DNA of 64,000 bases from Streptomyces asoensis. Lineage in GTDB: Bacteria; Actinomycetota; Actinomycetes; Streptomycetales; Streptomycetaceae. Shown here piece by piece: positions 33,499 through 39,995 of the stretch (positions are counted from its first letter, which is position 1; each line of letters begins with the position of its first letter). Under the pieces are notes generated by a model, which was not told the DNA's origin, made no database searches, and saw only the letters and a list, made by a program, of their open reading frames with translations. The position numbers and the translations under genes were made by a program. The stretch spans positions 9,424,001-9,488,000 of the forward strand of contig NZ_CP049838.1 in the NCBI RefSeq assembly GCF_013085465.1, written 5' to 3'.

Positions 33499-35046
33499 AT
33501 GACGCCTCGGGGTACGCAACGCTCAGATCTCTCGTCGGCGCAGCTGCCGGGGCCGTGGACCGGTCAGCCGCTGATCTCGCGGGACATGACGCATGACGCG
33601 GTGGTCGTGGTGCCGGGGATCATGGGAAGCGCGTTACGGGAGACCACGGGGTCCCGGCGGCTCTTATGGGGACTGGAGGATCTCGGCTGGCTGCTGTCGG
33701 CGTGGCAGGGGCGCGGTGAGTCACTGCGGCGGCTGCATCTGGACGAGAGCGAGCGATCGGGGCGCTACGGGCGGGTCGAGCCCGCCGGACTGCTGAGATT
33801 CCCTGCCTGGGCGCCCTTCCTGCACGGCTTGGAGCCATACGACCACCTGCTGAAGACCGTACGGGATGCCGTGGCCGATCCGGCGGCCGTGTTGGCGTTC
33901 GCGTACGACTGGCGGCTGCCGGTGGAGGTCAACGGCGCACTGCTGGCCGAGGCCGCTCATCGCCACCTTGCCGCCTGGCGCGGCAGCGAGGCCCACAGCA
34001 GGGCACGGCGACTGCACCCCGACGAACGAGAGGCACGCCTGGTGATCGTCGCCCACTCCATGGGCGGCCTGGTCACACGCGCCGCGTTCGCCCGCGCCGC
34101 GGCCCAGGGGAGCGATCTGGGCGCCGACACCCGCTGTGTCGTCACTCTCGGGACGCCGTTCCTCGGCTCGGTCAAGGCCGCGGTCATCCTGGGCGGCAAC
34201 CGCTCCGCCCCGCTGCCCGCCAGGCCCAGACGCAGAATGCAGGCCCTGGCCAGGACCCTGCCGGGTGTGCACGACCTGTTGCCGGACTACCGGTGTGTCG
34301 ACGCGGGCGAGGACGTGCTCCGGCTCACCCCGTCCGACGTCGCCGGACTCGGCGGCGACAAGGAACTGGCCGCGGAGGCGCAGGACTTCCAACAGCGCAT
34401 GCGTGCCCCCGGCGCGCCGGGCCTCCCCGGGCATCGGTCGATCGTCGGAGTTGCCCAGCCCACCGCGCAGAGCCTGCGTCTTGAAGGCGGGGTGGTGTAC
34501 GAGCAGTACCTGTCCTTCGAACGCGACGGGGATGGCGAGTTGGCGCGAGATCCGGCAGCGGGGCTTCCCGTTCGCCGGGACCGGGCGGGCGATGGCACCG
34601 TCTACCGCGACGCCGCCGCGCTGTCCGGCAGCAAGGGAGTGACGTGGCTTCCGTTGCAGCACGGCTCCCTGGCCAAGGACGGAGTCGCCCTCGCCCACGT
34701 CCGCGCGATCCTCACCGAGCGCGACCAGCACCTCGGCCCCGCCCTGGGCGCCGGCGGCATCGGCCTGGACCTGCCCGACTGTGTGGAAGCCGGCCGGCCC
34801 TGGCTCGCACGCCTGACACCCGCACCCGGCGAGGAACTCGAAAGCCATGCCGGCATCGCCTGTTCGGTGCACGACGCCGAAACCGACCGACGCGTCGACA
34901 CCGGTCGCCTGGGCTGGCACGACGGCACCGTCGCCGCCTCCCTCACACTGCCCTCCCCCGGGCTGTATCGGATACGGGTCATCACCGAGGGCACCCCGCC
35001 CCTCACCCAACTCGTCCTCGCCCTCGATCTCACAGACCCGATCTGA
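33499..35046 (+). CDS. LCAT-like lipase/acyltransferase, first gene of a conflict-type pair
   Basis: The 515-residue protein matches the lecithin:cholesterol acyltransferase-like fold: the oxyanion strand VVVVPGIMGSALR, nucleophile S187 in VAHSMGGLVTRA, acid D365 in GDGTV and His H388 in LPLQHGS. The triad is complete. A C-terminal beta-sandwich (about 425-515) follows, with LGWHDGTVAASLTLP. There is no signal peptide, so it acts inside the cell, perhaps on membrane phospholipids. Residue 56 is encoded by TTA (33664-33666), which requires the bldA tRNA. The ATG at 33499 follows TACAGT by eight bases, so a leaderless transcript is possible. It is followed after 14 bases by the caspase-STAND gene. 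Confidence 0.8.
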   Translation: MTPRGTQRSDLSSAQLPGPWTGQPLISRDMTHDAVVVVPGIMGSALRETTGSRRLLWGLEDLGWLLSAWQGRGESLRRLHLDESERSGRYGRVEPAGLLRFPAWAPFLHGLEPYDHLLKTVRDAVADPAAVLAFAYDWRLPVEVNGALLAEAAHRHLAAWRGSEAHSRARRLHPDEREARLVIVAHSMGGLVTRAAFARAAAQGSDLGADTRCVVTLGTPFLGSVKAAVILGGNRSAPLPARPRRRMQALARTLPGVHDLLPDYRCVDAGEDVLRLTPSDVAGLGGDKELAAEAQDFQQRMRAPGAPGLPGHRSIVGVAQPTAQSLRLEGGVVYEQYLSFERDGDGELARDPAAGLPVRRDRAGDGTVYRDAAALSGSKGVTWLPLQHGSLAKDGVALAHVRAILTERDQHLGPALGAGGIGLDLPDCVEAGRPWLARLTPAPGEELESHAGIACSVHDAETDRRVDTGRLGWHDGTVAASLTLPSPGLYRIRVITEGTPPLTQLVLALDLTDPI

Positions 35047-35060
35047 GACCCGCACCTCCC

Positions 35061-38000
35061 ATGGCCCCACAGGACACCCAGGACGACGACCGTTCCGCCG
35101 GCAGCCCGCTCCAGTTCTTCCCCATCGACATCGGCCACTACGACAACCACCCTCCCCTGCCCACGGGACCGGAAGTCGACGCGGTTGCCGCCCTGTTGAC
35201 TCCGTTCGGCGCCGAGACCGACGCCTGGCGTGCTCCGCAGGAAGGCCGCGGTCCCGACGCCGTCCACGACCGCCTCGCCGCATGGTCCGCCGACCGCACC
35301 GGCTGTGACACCGTCCTGTACTGGGTCGGACACGGCGCCAGCGACGGCTTCTTCCACGCACTGCTCGCCCACGCGAAAAGCCCTCGACCGCTCGACACGA
35401 ACGGCATCTCTCATCTGGAGATTCTTCAGCATCTCAAGAGGAGGCAGGCACGGCAGGACGCCGGTTGGGCCGCCGTCGTCGTCGATACCTGCAAGTCGCG
35501 CCGCTTCATCGAGCTGATGAGCAGTCAGGCGATCCTGGACCCGGACGTCAGCGACTTCATCCTCGTGGCCAGTTCGCACGACGGCAGTGCAACCCTCGGC
35601 GCGTTCCGGGAGATCCTTGACCGTCTGCTCACCGTGACCTTCCGAACGCACGACACCATCAGCCTCTACGCCTTGGCCGAGCAGATCAACTGCGCCATGG
35701 GCGACACCGTCGCCTACGCCCGGACGCACAACCGGGCAGCCCTGCGGCGGACCCACCCGACCGTGGTCGGCCGGATGCAGGCCCCGCTCGACACCGAGGC
35801 CGAGATCGAGAACGCCCTTGTCGCGCTCACGGCCGACGAGCGTCGTCATTTCGTCGAGAAGGCCGCAGGTGGTGAACTGGGCGAACAGGCCTGGTACTTC
35901 GAGGGACGCGAGACCGAACGCTACGACATCCTGTCCTGGCTCGACACCACGCGGGAAGGGCTGCTCGTGGTCACCGGGCCGGCCGGCTCGGGCAAGTCGG
36001 CACTGCTCGGGCACATCCTGATCCACACCCGCCCGGACCTGGCCGAACCCCTCTTCCGTGCCGGACATCTCTCCGACCTACCGCCGGGAACGCCCCGCCC
36101 CACCGACGCGTTCGACCTCGCCGTCCACCTCACCGGTGTCTCGGCCCAGGCACTGCTCGACAGGATCGTCGAAGCCGTGGGCCGCAAGATCGGAGCCAAC
36201 GGCTTCAAGCCGCTCTCCCCCGACCAGCCCTTCGACTCCCAGATGGCCCGGCTCACCGGACGGCTGGCGGACCTGCGGCTCGGGGCACCTGGGGGCGGGG
36301 GAGGGAAGTGGACGTTCACCCTGCTCGCGGACGCCCTCGACGAGGCTCATCTGCCCCTGGTCATCGCGGAGGAGGTACTCCGGCCGTTGGCCCGAACGCC
36401 GGGCGTCCGGGTCGTCGTCGGAACCCGCCGCTCCACCCGGGAGGGGCCGGACCTTCCGGCCCCCGACGACGAGGATCTCCTCGACGCCCTCGGAGCCACG
36501 GAGGGATCCGACCACCCCGGCGACAAAGTGCTCGTGGTGAGGCGCGACCGCGAGGCCACCATCCGCTACATCCGCCGTCGCCTGAAAACCGCACACGAAC
36601 GCGGCGCGCTCAAGGTCGGCCAGACAGACATCGAGCGTACGGTTCATGCCCTCGGACGCCTCGACCGCGAGTTTCTCTTCGCCCGCTTGGCCGTGCACGA
36701 GATCCTCCACGATCCGGGCCTCGCGCACGACCCCGCACCGCTCCTCGCGACCGACCACAGGGGGCTCTTCGGCCGCGCCGTGCAGCGCCTCACCGCCGTC
36801 AACCCGATACATCGCCATCTGCTGGAGGCTCTGGCGCTCTCACGGGGGCTCGGGCTGCCCGACCGGGACGACATCTGGTCCACCGCGGCCACCGCGCTCA
36901 TGCCCGATGACGGCCTACTGCCGATCACCAGCGAGGACATCGTCCGGCTCATCGAGGGCGGAGCCCCTTACCTCATGGCCGCGATCGAGTCCGACCAGAC
37001 GGTGTACCGCCTCGCGCACCGCGCCTTCATCGAGCACTTCGAGCGTCCCGCGCAACCGCCGGAAAGCGACGACCGCCACCGACGCATCGCCATCCGGCTC
37101 GCCCGCCATGCGGACGCCCGGGTGCCCGACGAGGTACCGAATCCCTACGTCCGTCTCCACTTGGCCGATCACGCGGCTCTCGGCGGCCCCACGGCTTGGG
37201 AGGTTCTCGGCGCCCGCCCCTGCCTGCTGGACCGGTTGGACGCCACTGCCGTGCGGGGCAGTGCCAAACTGACCGGCTTCGGACGCTTCGCGTTGCCGCC
37301 GGCCGTGGCGGGCGTGGTCGCGGCGTACGACCGGCTCGCAGACGCGTCGGCCGGTGACCGGCGTGGCCTGCGGGAGCTGGCCACGGCGCGCTGCACCGAC
37401 CAGAGCAGCCCTCCTCGCCAGCCGTTCGACCCGCAGGCGGCGTGGTCCCTGGCCTGGGCCCGGCTCCAACGGCGGCCCCTCCACCTTCCGTTGCAGGGCC
37501 ACCAGAGCGAGGTCGTGGCGGTGACGGCCTTCGCGGCGCCGAACGGAGACACACTGCTGGCCTCCGCCAGCGACGACGGAACGTTGTGTCTGTGGGATCT
37601 GGCCACGGCCGAGCAGACGAGTTCCCCGCTGGACAGCGGCACCGGTCCCGTACGCGTGGTGAAGGCCTTCACCATGTCGAGTGGGCGCACGTTCCTCGTC
37701 ACCGGCACCGACGGCGGGAAAGTACACATCTGGAATCCGGTCACGGCCGACCAGACCGCCGTCTCGCCCCTGGTGGGTCATGAGGGCCCCGTCCAGGCGA
37801 TGGCCGTCTTCACCGGATCCGACGGACGCACGCTCCTCGCCACCGGCGGCGACGACTGCACCGTCCGTATCTGGGACCCCGCCACGGGCCACGAAACCGC
37901 ACAGCCGCTGACCGGACACACCGGCGCGATCCAGGCCATCACGGCGTTCACCACGTCCGACGGACGCACACTTCTCGCCAGCGGCGGCGACGACGAGACC

Positions 38001-39392
38001 CTCCGCGTCTGGGACCCGGCCACCGGGCACCAGACCATCGCACCTCTCGAGGGACATACCGGTGCCGTGCAGACGGTGGTGGCGTTCACCACGCCCGAGG
38101 GACGAAACCGGCTCGCCAGCGGCAGCGACGACTGCACCATTCGTGTCTGGGACCCAGGCACCGGCCGCCAGACGGTGCCACCTCTCGAAGGACACACCGA
38201 CTGGATCGGCGAGGTGACCGCGTTCCGCGGGCCCGACGGGCTGCCGCTGCTGGCCAGTTGCAGCGACGACGAGACGATCCGGCTCTGGGACCCGGCCACC
38301 GGACGGGAGACCTCACCCCCTCTCTACGGCCACGGCCACCGCAAGTTGATCGGCGCGATCACTGCGTTCACCGGGCCCGACGGACGCACGCTCCTTGCCA
38401 CCGGAAGCAACGACCGCACGGTCCGTATCTGGGACCCGGCCACGAGTCGGCAGGCCTCGCCGACCCTGCGGAGTCACGCACAAGAAGTGGGCGCGGTGGT
38501 GGCGTTCGCCGGGGCCGGCGGACGCACGTTCCTCGCCACCGGCGGCAACGACGACACGACCCGAATCTGGGACGCGGCCACGGGCCATGCGATCGGCACC
38601 CCTCTGCGCGGACAAGGACACCGGGTCGAGGCTCTCGCGCCGTTCACCGGGTCACATGGGCAAACGCTCCTGGCCGTGTGCAGCGGCGACGGGTTCGTGG
38701 AGATCTGGGACCTGGACGTCCCGGGCAACGGGGTGCTGTCGCTCATAGGACACACGGGTGGCGTGCGAGCGGTGGCGGCATTCCCCGCACCGGGCCGCGG
38801 AACGTACCTGGCGATCGGCGACGACCGCACGGTGCGCCTGTGGGACCCCGTCACCGGACAACAGATCACGGCACCGCTGTTGGGGCACACCGGCGCCGTG
38901 CGTGCCATCAGCACCTTCACCGCGCTCGACGGACACATCCTGCTCGCCAGCGGAGGCAATGACGGGAGTGTGCGCATCTGGGATCCCGTCACCGGCCAAG
39001 AGACGCAAGCGCCCCTGCGAGGCCATGCCGGCGCAGTCCGCACGATGCTGGTCCTCCCCTCATGGGAAGGGCGCACCTTGCTCGTCACGGGCGGCGAGGA
39101 CTGCACCGTGCGGGTCTGGGACCCTGCCATCGGCAAGGAGATCATCCACCCTCTGGCCGGGCACTCCGCCGCTGTGCAGGCGGTCACAGCGTTCACCGCG
39201 ACGGACGGACACACTCACCTCGCCACCGGCAGCAACGACCGGACCGTACGCATCTGGGACCCGGCGTCCTGGATCGAGCGTCTTGTCATCTCCGTGGACC
39301 TGGCGGTGCACGGACTCGCGGCAGCCGGCTCGAACCTGGCCCTGGCCACGGACCAGGGCGTCGCCATGCTGAAGGTGGCGCAACGGGCATGA
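35061..39392 (+). CDS. Caspase-like protease / STAND NTPase / WD40 propeller protein
   Basis: The 1443-residue protein has three parts. First is a caspase-like peptidase domain (about 20-240), with catalytic His H91 in VLYWVGHGASDG and Cys C144 in VVVDTCKSRRF. Second is a STAND-type P-loop NTPase (about 285-670), with Walker A GPAGSGKSALL (K312), Walker B FTLLADALDEAH (D424/D427) and the winged-helix-like RLAHRAFIEHFERP. Third is a WD40 region (about 805-1443) with thirteen clear IWDP-type repeats and a degenerate fourteenth, enough for two seven-bladed propellers. In this architecture the propeller senses, the NTPase oligomerises and the protease is the effector. The start lacks a good ribosome binding site and probably depends on coupling to the LCAT gene. 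Confidence 0.85.
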   Translation: MAPQDTQDDDRSAGSPLQFFPIDIGHYDNHPPLPTGPEVDAVAALLTPFGAETDAWRAPQEGRGPDAVHDRLAAWSADRTGCDTVLYWVGHGASDGFFHALLAHAKSPRPLDTNGISHLEILQHLKRRQARQDAGWAAVVVDTCKSRRFIELMSSQAILDPDVSDFILVASSHDGSATLGAFREILDRLLTVTFRTHDTISLYALAEQINCAMGDTVAYARTHNRAALRRTHPTVVGRMQAPLDTEAEIENALVALTADERRHFVEKAAGGELGEQAWYFEGRETERYDILSWLDTTREGLLVVTGPAGSGKSALLGHILIHTRPDLAEPLFRAGHLSDLPPGTPRPTDAFDLAVHLTGVSAQALLDRIVEAVGRKIGANGFKPLSPDQPFDSQMARLTGRLADLRLGAPGGGGGKWTFTLLADALDEAHLPLVIAEEVLRPLARTPGVRVVVGTRRSTREGPDLPAPDDEDLLDALGATEGSDHPGDKVLVVRRDREATIRYIRRRLKTAHERGALKVGQTDIERTVHALGRLDREFLFARLAVHEILHDPGLAHDPAPLLATDHRGLFGRAVQRLTAVNPIHRHLLEALALSRGLGLPDRDDIWSTAATALMPDDGLLPITSEDIVRLIEGGAPYLMAAIESDQTVYRLAHRAFIEHFERPAQPPESDDRHRRIAIRLARHADARVPDEVPNPYVRLHLADHAALGGPTAWEVLGARPCLLDRLDATAVRGSAKLTGFGRFALPPAVAGVVAAYDRLADASAGDRRGLRELATARCTDQSSPPRQPFDPQAAWSLAWARLQRRPLHLPLQGHQSEVVAVTAFAAPNGDTLLASASDDGTLCLWDLATAEQTSSPLDSGTGPVRVVKAFTMSSGRTFLVTGTDGGKVHIWNPVTADQTAVSPLVGHEGPVQAMAVFTGSDGRTLLATGGDDCTVRIWDPATGHETAQPLTGHTGAIQAITAFTTSDGRTLLASGGDDETLRVWDPATGHQTIAPLEGHTGAVQTVVAFTTPEGRNRLASGSDDCTIRVWDPGTGRQTVPPLEGHTDWIGEVTAFRGPDGLPLLASCSDDETIRLWDPATGRETSPPLYGHGHRKLIGAITAFTGPDGRTLLATGSNDRTVRIWDPATSRQASPTLRSHAQEVGAVVAFAGAGGRTFLATGGNDDTTRIWDAATGHAIGTPLRGQGHRVEALAPFTGSHGQTLLAVCSGDGFVEIWDLDVPGNGVLSLIGHTGGVRAVAAFPAPGRGTYLAIGDDRTVRLWDPVTGQQITAPLLGHTGAVRAISTFTALDGHILLASGGNDGSVRIWDPVTGQETQAPLRGHAGAVRTMLVLPSWEGRTLLVTGGEDCTVRVWDPAIGKEIIHPLAGHSAAVQAVTAFTATDGHTHLATGSNDRTVRIWDPASWIERLVISVDLAVHGLAAAGSNLALATDQGVAMLKVAQRA
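37491..39290 (+). repeat. Thirteen DNA-level repeats encoding WD40 blades
   Basis: Units of about 135-150 bases repeat from 37.49 to 39.29 kb. Each contains a GGACGCACGCTCCTCGCC-like block and a CGTATCTGGGACCC-like block. Many stretches are almost identical between neighbours, so the array could expand, contract or recombine. The unit length corresponds to 44-50 residues, slightly longer than the usual 40-residue WD repeat because of an inserted FTxxDGRTLLA loop. Confidence 0.85.
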
Positions 39393-39515
39393 GCACGGAC
39401 GACGCAGTTCATGAGCTCATCCACGGTCACCGCACGGAGACAAGCCGTCAGGCCGGCCGTCCCGGCAACAGCGGACCCGGGCTCCCTTGGTCACAGTGGG
39501 GATCATTTGGCGGGA

Positions 39516-39569
39516 ACGGTACGGCGGTTGCGGTTGCGTGCCGGGCTGACACAGGAGGCCTTGGCGTAG
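39516..39569 (+). pseudogene. Remnant of a helix-turn-helix (XRE-type) regulator
   Basis: A short frame reads TVRRLRLRAGLTQEALA and then stops. This is the classic N-terminal recognition helix of actinobacterial XRE or AfsR-type regulators, where ERAGVS is expected next. Instead the sequence enters the reversed ADP-ribosylglycohydrolase remnant. A further upstream FGG in another frame suggests a frameshift. Only the fragment is present. Confidence 0.5.
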
Positions 39570-39574
39570 CGTTC

Positions 39575-39995
39575 GGCATGCCGTTGGTCAGGACGTCTTC
39601 GGTCTGTAGTCCGATGTCCTTGGGGTCTGATGCCGCCCACCGCTGGAAGCGGGCGAAGATGTCCGGCAGATCCAGTCCGCCCCGCTCCAGCAGCGGCTCC
39701 GCGACCAGGACGGCCATCTGCGTGTCGTCAGTGGCCTCGCCGGGGTCCCAGCCACCGCCTCCGCACATCTCTCCACCGGCACCAGGCGCGGGAAACCGCG
39801 CGGAGAAGGCTCCAGGGGGACGAACTCGAAAGGGCCACCCAGGGCGTCACCCACCGCTGAGCCGACGACCGTGCCGGCGGCCCTGTTCCTTCTTCGGCTC
39901 CCCGAACCATCGGCGGCGAAAGGGCCTCGTCTACGGAGGTGCGCCGCCTGAGACACCGTGGGTCTGAGGCATCCGTACAGGTCACCTAACGCCAT
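39575..39995 (-). pseudogene. Truncated, frameshifted ADP-ribosylglycohydrolase
   Basis: The N-terminal piece reads RAAGTVVGSAVGDALGGPFE, the conserved opening of ADP-ribosylglycohydrolase (DraG-like) proteins. Another frame continues with GGGGWDPGEATDDTQMAVLV, which contains the metal-binding TDDTQM motif, and then FARFQRWAASDPKDIGLQT. A base is missing in the run of five C/G at 39815-39819; adding one restores continuity. The reading then ends near LTNGMP, where the downstream two-thirds of the family is absent. The gene is therefore a 5' fragment. Intact enzymes remove ADP-ribose from proteins or nucleic acids. Confidence 0.75.

Follow-up and report, generated by a model that had tools for sequence, protein, structure and literature searches.

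On the forward strand of a 64,000-nucleotide stretch of the Streptomyces asoensis genome (contig NZ_CP049838.1, positions 9,424,001 to 9,488,000; the whole stretch is called the window, and coordinates are counted from its first letter), two adjoining genes code for an LCAT/LPLA2-type lipase and for a receptor in which a caspase, a STAND NTPase and a WD40 sensor are fused. The pair formed by these genes is conserved far beyond chance. Judged from sequences and predicted folds, they probably constitute a two-gene NLR-type cell-death module, directed presumably against invaders, in which the caspase would control the (phospho)lipase. A sequence-only reading of the window had described a lipase with a Ser-Asp-His triad next to a caspase (His91/Cys144)-STAND-WD40 gene, and this is confirmed by fold, profile and alignment evidence; its interpretation as a whole is partly supported.

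The lipase and the receptor

The features of the two genes are as follows.

33499..35046, + strand: LCAT/LPLA2-type lipase gene; the start at 33499 is taken from homologue P0003, and 33586 is an alternative start
34057..34059, + strand: lipase nucleophile Ser158, in AHSMGG (S187 in the numbering of the sequence-only reading), invariant in the alignment
34519..34566, + strand: insertion specific to the lipase clade, shortly 5′ of the catalytic Asp codon, with a conserved L-x-R-D; hypothetical gating element
34591..34593, + strand: lipase catalytic Asp336, in GDGTV (D365 in the earlier numbering), from the alignment
34660..34662, + strand: lipase catalytic His359 (H388 in the earlier numbering), from the alignment
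34756..35043, + strand: C-terminal β-strand domain of the lipase (strands 392–480, filamin-type fold matches)
35061..39392, + strand: caspase-STAND-WD40 receptor gene, 1443 residues
35094..35756, + strand: MALT1-like caspase domain, residues ~12–232, from the predicted fold
35331..35333, + strand: caspase His91, from alignments
35490..35492, + strand: caspase Cys144, from alignments
35853..37505, + strand: Apaf-1-like STAND NTPase, including winged-helix and helical parts, from a fold match
35976..35999, + strand: Walker A, GPAGSGKS, residues 306–313
36330..36344, + strand: Walker B region, D424 to E428
37518..39389, + strand: WD40 sensor, 11–13 scored repeats

The product of the 5′ gene has the fold and the Ser-Asp-His triad of the LCAT/LPLA2 family, and no signal peptide was seen in it by visual inspection. 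In an alignment of 71 caspase-linked lipases, the nucleophile Ser is kept in 70 rows, the other one being a fragment with a gap at that position, and the triad is intact in all 70 non-fragment rows. The C-terminal domain of the lipase gave no match in Pfam; its β-strands and filamin-type fold matches suggest that it is immunoglobulin/filamin-like.

The product of the 3′ gene is assigned to the caspases (C14, clan CD) by the caspase fold with its catalytic His and Cys, and to the STAND/NLR-type receptors by an NTPase core with Walker A and B, followed by a C-terminal repeat sensor (WD40). His91 and Cys144 were invariant in 176 of 176 sequences, which had been picked by profile and not by motif and include near-duplicates, in 45 of 45 sequences of a second set, and in 14 of 14 caspases without LCAT lipase. 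Pfam Peptidase_C14 did not match the caspase of the window; it matches a second caspase of the same genome (L001) and the relatives L199 and P0172, with L117 below the cut-off. The PADLOC 'caspase' model also left the window's caspase unmatched, and it matched 11 of 45 caspase domains. Over the NTPase, Pfam AAA_16 (1.5e-7; 32.5 bits versus a cut-off of 32.6) and nSTAND1 (1.2e-4) both fell narrowly below cut-off.

Conservation of the pair and exchange of the sensor

The lipase alignment retrieved 80 named loci. In the 19 closest (L032–L050, of which L034 and L035 are near-identical), with lipase identities of 32–77%, a caspase-STAND gene always adjoins the lipase; these loci belong to Streptomyces, Actinacidiphila, Streptantibioticus, Nocardia, Symbioplanes, Catellatospora and Microbacterium. 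The caspase profile found no match in the 61 more distant loci (L051–L111), some of which are short contigs.

A census was run on 295 genomes of the genus, the own genome included. The lipase profile matched in 74 genomes at 1e-10, weak homologues counted, and the caspase profile in 236 at 1e-6. The lipase side amounted to 92 places, after coordinate-based merging of fragment rows from four broken or split lipases. From the strongest to the weakest class of match, a caspase was found within 6 kb of 26/30, 19/24, 12/20 and 0/18 lipases, that is, of 26 of the 30 lipases at E<1e-100 and of at least 57 of the 74 at E<1e-25, with a chance expectation of about 0.4% per lipase if 2–3 caspases per genome are assumed. 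The lipase precedes the caspase in 25 of the 57 pairs and follows it in 15, and the two genes are divergent in 17. The caspase side consisted of the best 114 rows of a longer list (down to 3.1e-21), with at most 10 candidates per genome, and a lipase lay within 6 kb of 45 of the 50 top-scoring caspases versus 10 among ranks 61–114. This gradient is partly built in, because profile A2 was derived from lipase-adjacent caspases; the bias touches the caspase ranking and does not inflate the count of lipases having a caspase.

In the class as a whole the lipase is seldom present: at 1e-20 it was matched in 7 of 296 genomes or, counted by genus, in 4 of 114. A protease adjoins the lipase in all five loci newly fetched from the class, a caspase in four and a trypsin in one. 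Over 59 loci the distances among lipases correlate with those among caspases (r = 0.77, reached in 0 of 2000 permutations), a value that shared ancestry raises too. This set was built without L035, as a duplicate of L034, and without the short loci L001–L031, hence without the lipases found only there (for example L007 and L013–L016); the short loci are also absent from the sensor survey and from the alignment of caspase-linked lipases. The conserved adjacency, the census counts and the distance correlation lead us to reject the idea that the two genes are neighbours by chance, in favour of which stands only the occurrence of both families in the genus, and whose probability is negligible. Neither of the two refuting conditions named in the sequence-only reading applies: the genes stay together across genomes, and homologues keep the catalytic residues of both enzymes.

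While caspase and lipase remain constant, the sensor of the receptor is exchanged: it is WD40 in the clade of the window and TPR elsewhere, and in some receptors neither profile matched. A make-up of constant and variable parts is a shared feature of the conflict systems treated by Kaur et al. 2020 (PMC7159879, section 35). At five loci (L043, L046, L048, L112 and L156) the receptor is encoded by two overlapping genes (ATGA or GTGA), split directly after the winged-helix motif. These overlaps are read as natural gene splits, and a programmed frameshift was rejected on their account. The receptor is also divided between two open reading frames (ORFs) at L121, L140 and L167, with junctions of other kinds. 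At L117 (G171), a single lipase has two caspase genes near it, with about 7 kb between them.

Protease-hydrolase associations and possible mechanism

Most of the caspase-STAND genes sampled that lack an LCAT lipase within 6 kb have a hydrolase of another family beside them. In 13 of 14 such genes, an α/β-hydrolase that is about 290 residues long and has a motif of GHSLGS type is directly adjoining; the 14 loci were drawn from 57, mostly from the top of the ranking and not at random. This small hydrolase is present at L210, at L212–L223, at L001 (alongside the second caspase of the own genome) and at L199, and it is missing at L211. At L199 the hydrolase adjoining the caspase-VMAP gene was picked up by the small-hydrolase profile (5e-8) and, at 1e-3, not by the LCAT profile. 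Elsewhere among the loci searched, that small-hydrolase profile matched nothing but LCAT lipases, and these weakly (~1e-5 to 1e-4). An LCAT lipase in VMAP systems was considered and rejected: among 18 VMAP-C regions (20 were fetched, with exclusion of L182, also VMAP-C but chosen for its lipase match, and of L192, a 100-base filler), one, L199, has a caspase by the profile used, and its hydrolase is of the small family. The occurrence of two hydrolase families in one place beside caspases suggests that their job there is caspase-coupled ester hydrolysis.

The lipases at E<1e-25 are also found with other proteases: besides the 57 with a caspase, four have a CHAT neighbour, four a trypsin-like one and nine none by these scans. 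Of the four caspase-less lipases at E<1e-100, one (G128) is broken over two frames and three (G099, G254 and G131) are the C-terminal LCAT domain of a large NTPase protein that adjoins a trypsin-like gene and EAD1 proteins; the NTPase was found by Pfam in G099 and G131, and in G254 as a P-loop motif seen by eye only. L206 is a further locus with an NTPase-LCAT fusion adjoining trypsin-like and EAD1 genes. Four weaker lipases (L138, L141, L142 and L143) adjoin CHAT proteins, and LCAT-like and CHAT domains share a single ORF in seven loci, L056, L065, L077, L091, L096, L101 and L103, whose records are named, in this order, Planctomyces, Gammaproteobacteria, Desulfobacterales, Leeuwenhoekiella, Nitrospira, Granulosicoccus and Bryobacterales. 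Pfam, applied to six of these ORFs, gave CHAT above cut-off in all six and LCAT in five, with L103 just below; L101 was recognized by local profiles. An association of LCAT-fold hydrolases with caspase-clan or trypsin-like proteases thus recurs. The trypsin-adjoining NTPase-LCAT fusions, the LCAT-CHAT fusions and the second hydrolase family beside caspase-STAND genes give indirect support to a protease-lipase unit.

Some details of these loci can be added. L149, L152, L153 and L206 have in common a large NTPase protein, a C-terminal LCAT lipase and trypsin-like and EAD1 genes alongside, and L149 has Tyr in the column of the lipase His. A stretch similar to Peptidase_M17_N lies between the LCAT-like and CHAT domains in L065, L077 and L096, and the LCAT-CHAT protein of L056 (L056:9629-14902) carries a C-terminal PLD-like domain, which makes three enzyme domains in one chain. 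The LCAT lipases of L060 and L061 adjoin ORFs of 1805 and 1922 residues, respectively; in that of L060, STAND and TPR models matched and no caspase was found.

The module would probably work in the following way, of which the sequences establish the make-up, the conservation and the pairing of the two genes. The WD40 part would sense a trigger, and the Apaf-1-like STAND NTPase would oligomerise in a nucleotide-dependent manner, bringing the caspase domains together and so switching them on. The active caspase would then license the LCAT/LPLA2-type lipase, most probably through cleavage of a segment that blocks the enzyme or through its release from a complex, and the licensed lipase would hydrolyse membrane phospholipid, with killing or arrest of the cell. 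The proteolytic step is proposed by analogy with canu and the trypsin-nuclease pairs of AVAST/Hachiman, as they are presented in PMC12799240.

The insertion that precedes the catalytic Asp of the lipase, of about 10–17 residues, is one possible gate. Of the caspase-linked rows, 34 have the L-x-R-D column, and 29 of these hold Arg there. MALT1 cleaves after Arg, which would suit such an insertion.

Several points weigh against the mechanism proposed. More than half of the caspase-linked lipase rows (37 of 71, one of them a fragment) lack the insertion proposed as a gate, so that it cannot be a general switch and there is no conserved cleavage site through the lipase family; a universal caspase site was looked for in that alignment and was not found. 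Half of the best caspase places (57 of 114) are without an LCAT lipase within 6 kb, and nine of the 74 lipases are without a protease neighbour by these scans: the frame-broken G128; G237, G028 and G033:C180, near contig ends; G058 and G071, which adjoin pyruvate dehydrogenase E1 genes; G134; and two of G091. LCAT-fold enzymes may also be acyltransferases or triglyceride lipases. As to the enrichment in defence islands that the sequence-only reading had suggested as a check, a PADLOC scan (1e-10) of 110 neighbouring genes from 14 named loci, run without a background set, gave no sign of it. In that scan 46 families matched and, among the matches listed (25 families, including DrmMI and type IIG methyltransferase, PD-T4-6 and C3a189 kinase, mad6 and PDC-S04), each was represented by one gene; the genes came from a simple caller based on GC content, and some may be missed. 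Finally, 61 genomes were searched (1e-60) for the genes on either side of the pair, that of the FAD protein upstream and that of the ROK protein downstream; among the matches listed, the two were never adjacent outside the own genome, so that an empty site could not be defined.

Lipase and caspase could instead be parallel effectors under one STAND receptor, aimed at membranes and proteins, respectively, and with no mutual processing. The lack of a cleavage site common to all caspase-linked lipases is in agreement with this, as are the NTPase-LCAT fusions, which place the lipase directly on the NTPase protein. However, these fusions are still accompanied by a protease gene, and the LCAT-CHAT fusions, together with the occupation of one place by two hydrolase families, are easier to reconcile with a unit of protease and hydrolase; we regard independent action of both enzymes as rather unlikely. 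It is less probable still that the hydrolase is no killer and acts upstream of the caspase as a regulator or signal processor, for instance by removing an acyl group or holding the protease inactive. That it has a gene of its own, which in 42 of the 57 pairs lies upstream of the caspase gene or diverges from it, would suit such a role, and so would the fact that either of two hydrolase families can occupy the place, but the LPLA2/LCAT fold with a complete triad and the C-terminal position of LCAT in the fusions, resembling effector placement, speak against it.

A third alternative concerns the purpose of the module, which could serve developmental cell death or lipid turnover in mycelial actinobacteria and not defence against phages. 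The pair occurs mostly in Streptomyces and relatives and shows no defence-island signal; yet the distribution is patchy (lipase matches in 74/295 genus genomes at E≤1e-10, weak homologues included, and in 7/296 class genomes), which a conserved developmental function would not give, and the sensor varies. We assign a low probability to this purpose, and the preferred reading remains that of caspase control over a lipase, probably against invaders. A broader proposal is possible, although doubtful enough to be offered only tentatively: a caspase-clan or trypsin-like protease and a serine lipase would form a portable and widespread bacterial death cassette, in which the lipase would be a pro-enzyme unlocked by an NLR-borne caspase, as a counterpart of caspase and gasdermin, its place would be filled by either of the two hydrolase families, and the cassette would have been joined to STAND-WD40, STAND-TPR, VMAP, CHAT and EAD1/trypsin proteins.

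The pair is flanked upstream by the gene of an amine oxidase-like FAD protein, and further neighbours are a polyketide cyclase-like protein, an ORF without family, an ADP-ribosylglycohydrolase remnant and a ROK protein (downstream). The remnant (39448-39995, − strand), in two frames, lies directly 3′ of the receptor gene (Pfam 1.3e-13 and 7.7e-5). A promoter/terminator consensus scan found none.

Comparison with known systems

The sequence-only reading knew of no described system with this pair. In the literature searched (titles and starts of abstracts, with subscription papers and preprints largely outside), no description of a STAND/LCAT pair was found, and to that extent the claim stands for the exact pair; it does not stand for the coupling of a caspase with an α/β-hydrolase, known from VMAP, nor for that of a caspase with an effector activated by it, known from canu. 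The closest precedent, which limits the novelty, is the ternary VMAP (vWA-MoxR) system: section 9 of Kaur et al. 2020 (PMC7159879) states that caspase-bearing VMAP genes always have an α/β-hydrolase neighbour and suggests joint operation. As described there, the caspase is on VMAP and accompanied by MoxR and vWA genes, whereas here a STAND-WD40 receptor carries it, next to a hydrolase of LCAT/LPLA2 type. VMAP-C gave no match to residues 1–312 and 263–815 of the receptor, the remainder of which matches WD40, and there are no MoxR or vWA genes among the scanned neighbours of the pair. If our reading is true, the 2020 rule that a caspase domain implies a neighbouring α/β-hydrolase would extend from VMAP to STAND receptors. 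The two-gene EACC1 system, in section 33 of the same paper, resembles the pair in having a caspase in the 3′ gene and STAND among the fused domains; its 5′ gene, however, codes for an EACC1 protein with a single transmembrane segment, and here for an LCAT lipase.

Caspase-nuclease defence by canu (Tuck et al. 2025, PMC12799240), in which the protease activates a pro-effector, and the trypsin-nuclease pairs of AVAST/Hachiman treated in the same paper share with our pair the character of a portable protease-effector unit, with a MALT1-like caspase adjoining an effector enzyme. According to that account the effector of canu is a nuclease and its activation is demonstrated, whereas here the partner is an LCAT lipase and not an MBL-type nuclease, the caspase is fused to STAND-WD40, and activation of the lipase is a proposal. 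The CARD-NLR gasdermin/phospholipase systems also combine protease, NLR-like ATPase and death effector, and the LypABC paper (PMC13236601), citing Wein 2025, names phospholipases as alternative effectors in them. As presented there, a CARD-bearing trypsin-like protease is encoded apart from the NLR-like protein, whereas the window has neither a CARD-trypsin protein nor a gasdermin in the pair, its caspase being fused to STAND and its partner being a lipase.

Metacaspase-NACHT-WD40 proteins, listed and called widely distributed by Asplund-Samuelsson 2012 (PMC3501461), have the same receptor architecture, with no LCAT partner seen in the passages that describe them. In the fungal protease-NLR/gasdermin pathways, as reported in PMC12881547, an NLR sensor and a CHAT or S8 protease control a membrane executioner, often from clustered genes, and the executioner is a pore former where ours is a lipase. 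According to Kaur 2021 (PMC8195603), the fusion partners of a bacterial death-like domain include membrane-lipid α/β-hydrolases.

If the proposed module is real, families so far annotated as 'hypothetical protein' or 'lipase/acyltransferase domain-containing protein' would gain an initial hint at their function, and the pair could be tested directly, the catalytic residues being known on both sides. The likeness to the Apaf-1 apoptosome lies in the STAND NTPase with WD40, supported by the fold match. Apaf-1 recruits its caspase through CARD, whereas here the caspase is fused in cis. An Apaf-1-like receptor with a built-in caspase would thus control a membrane-lysing lipase: a single protein would correspond to the animal apoptosome together with its caspase, and the lipase would stand in the position of gasdermin.

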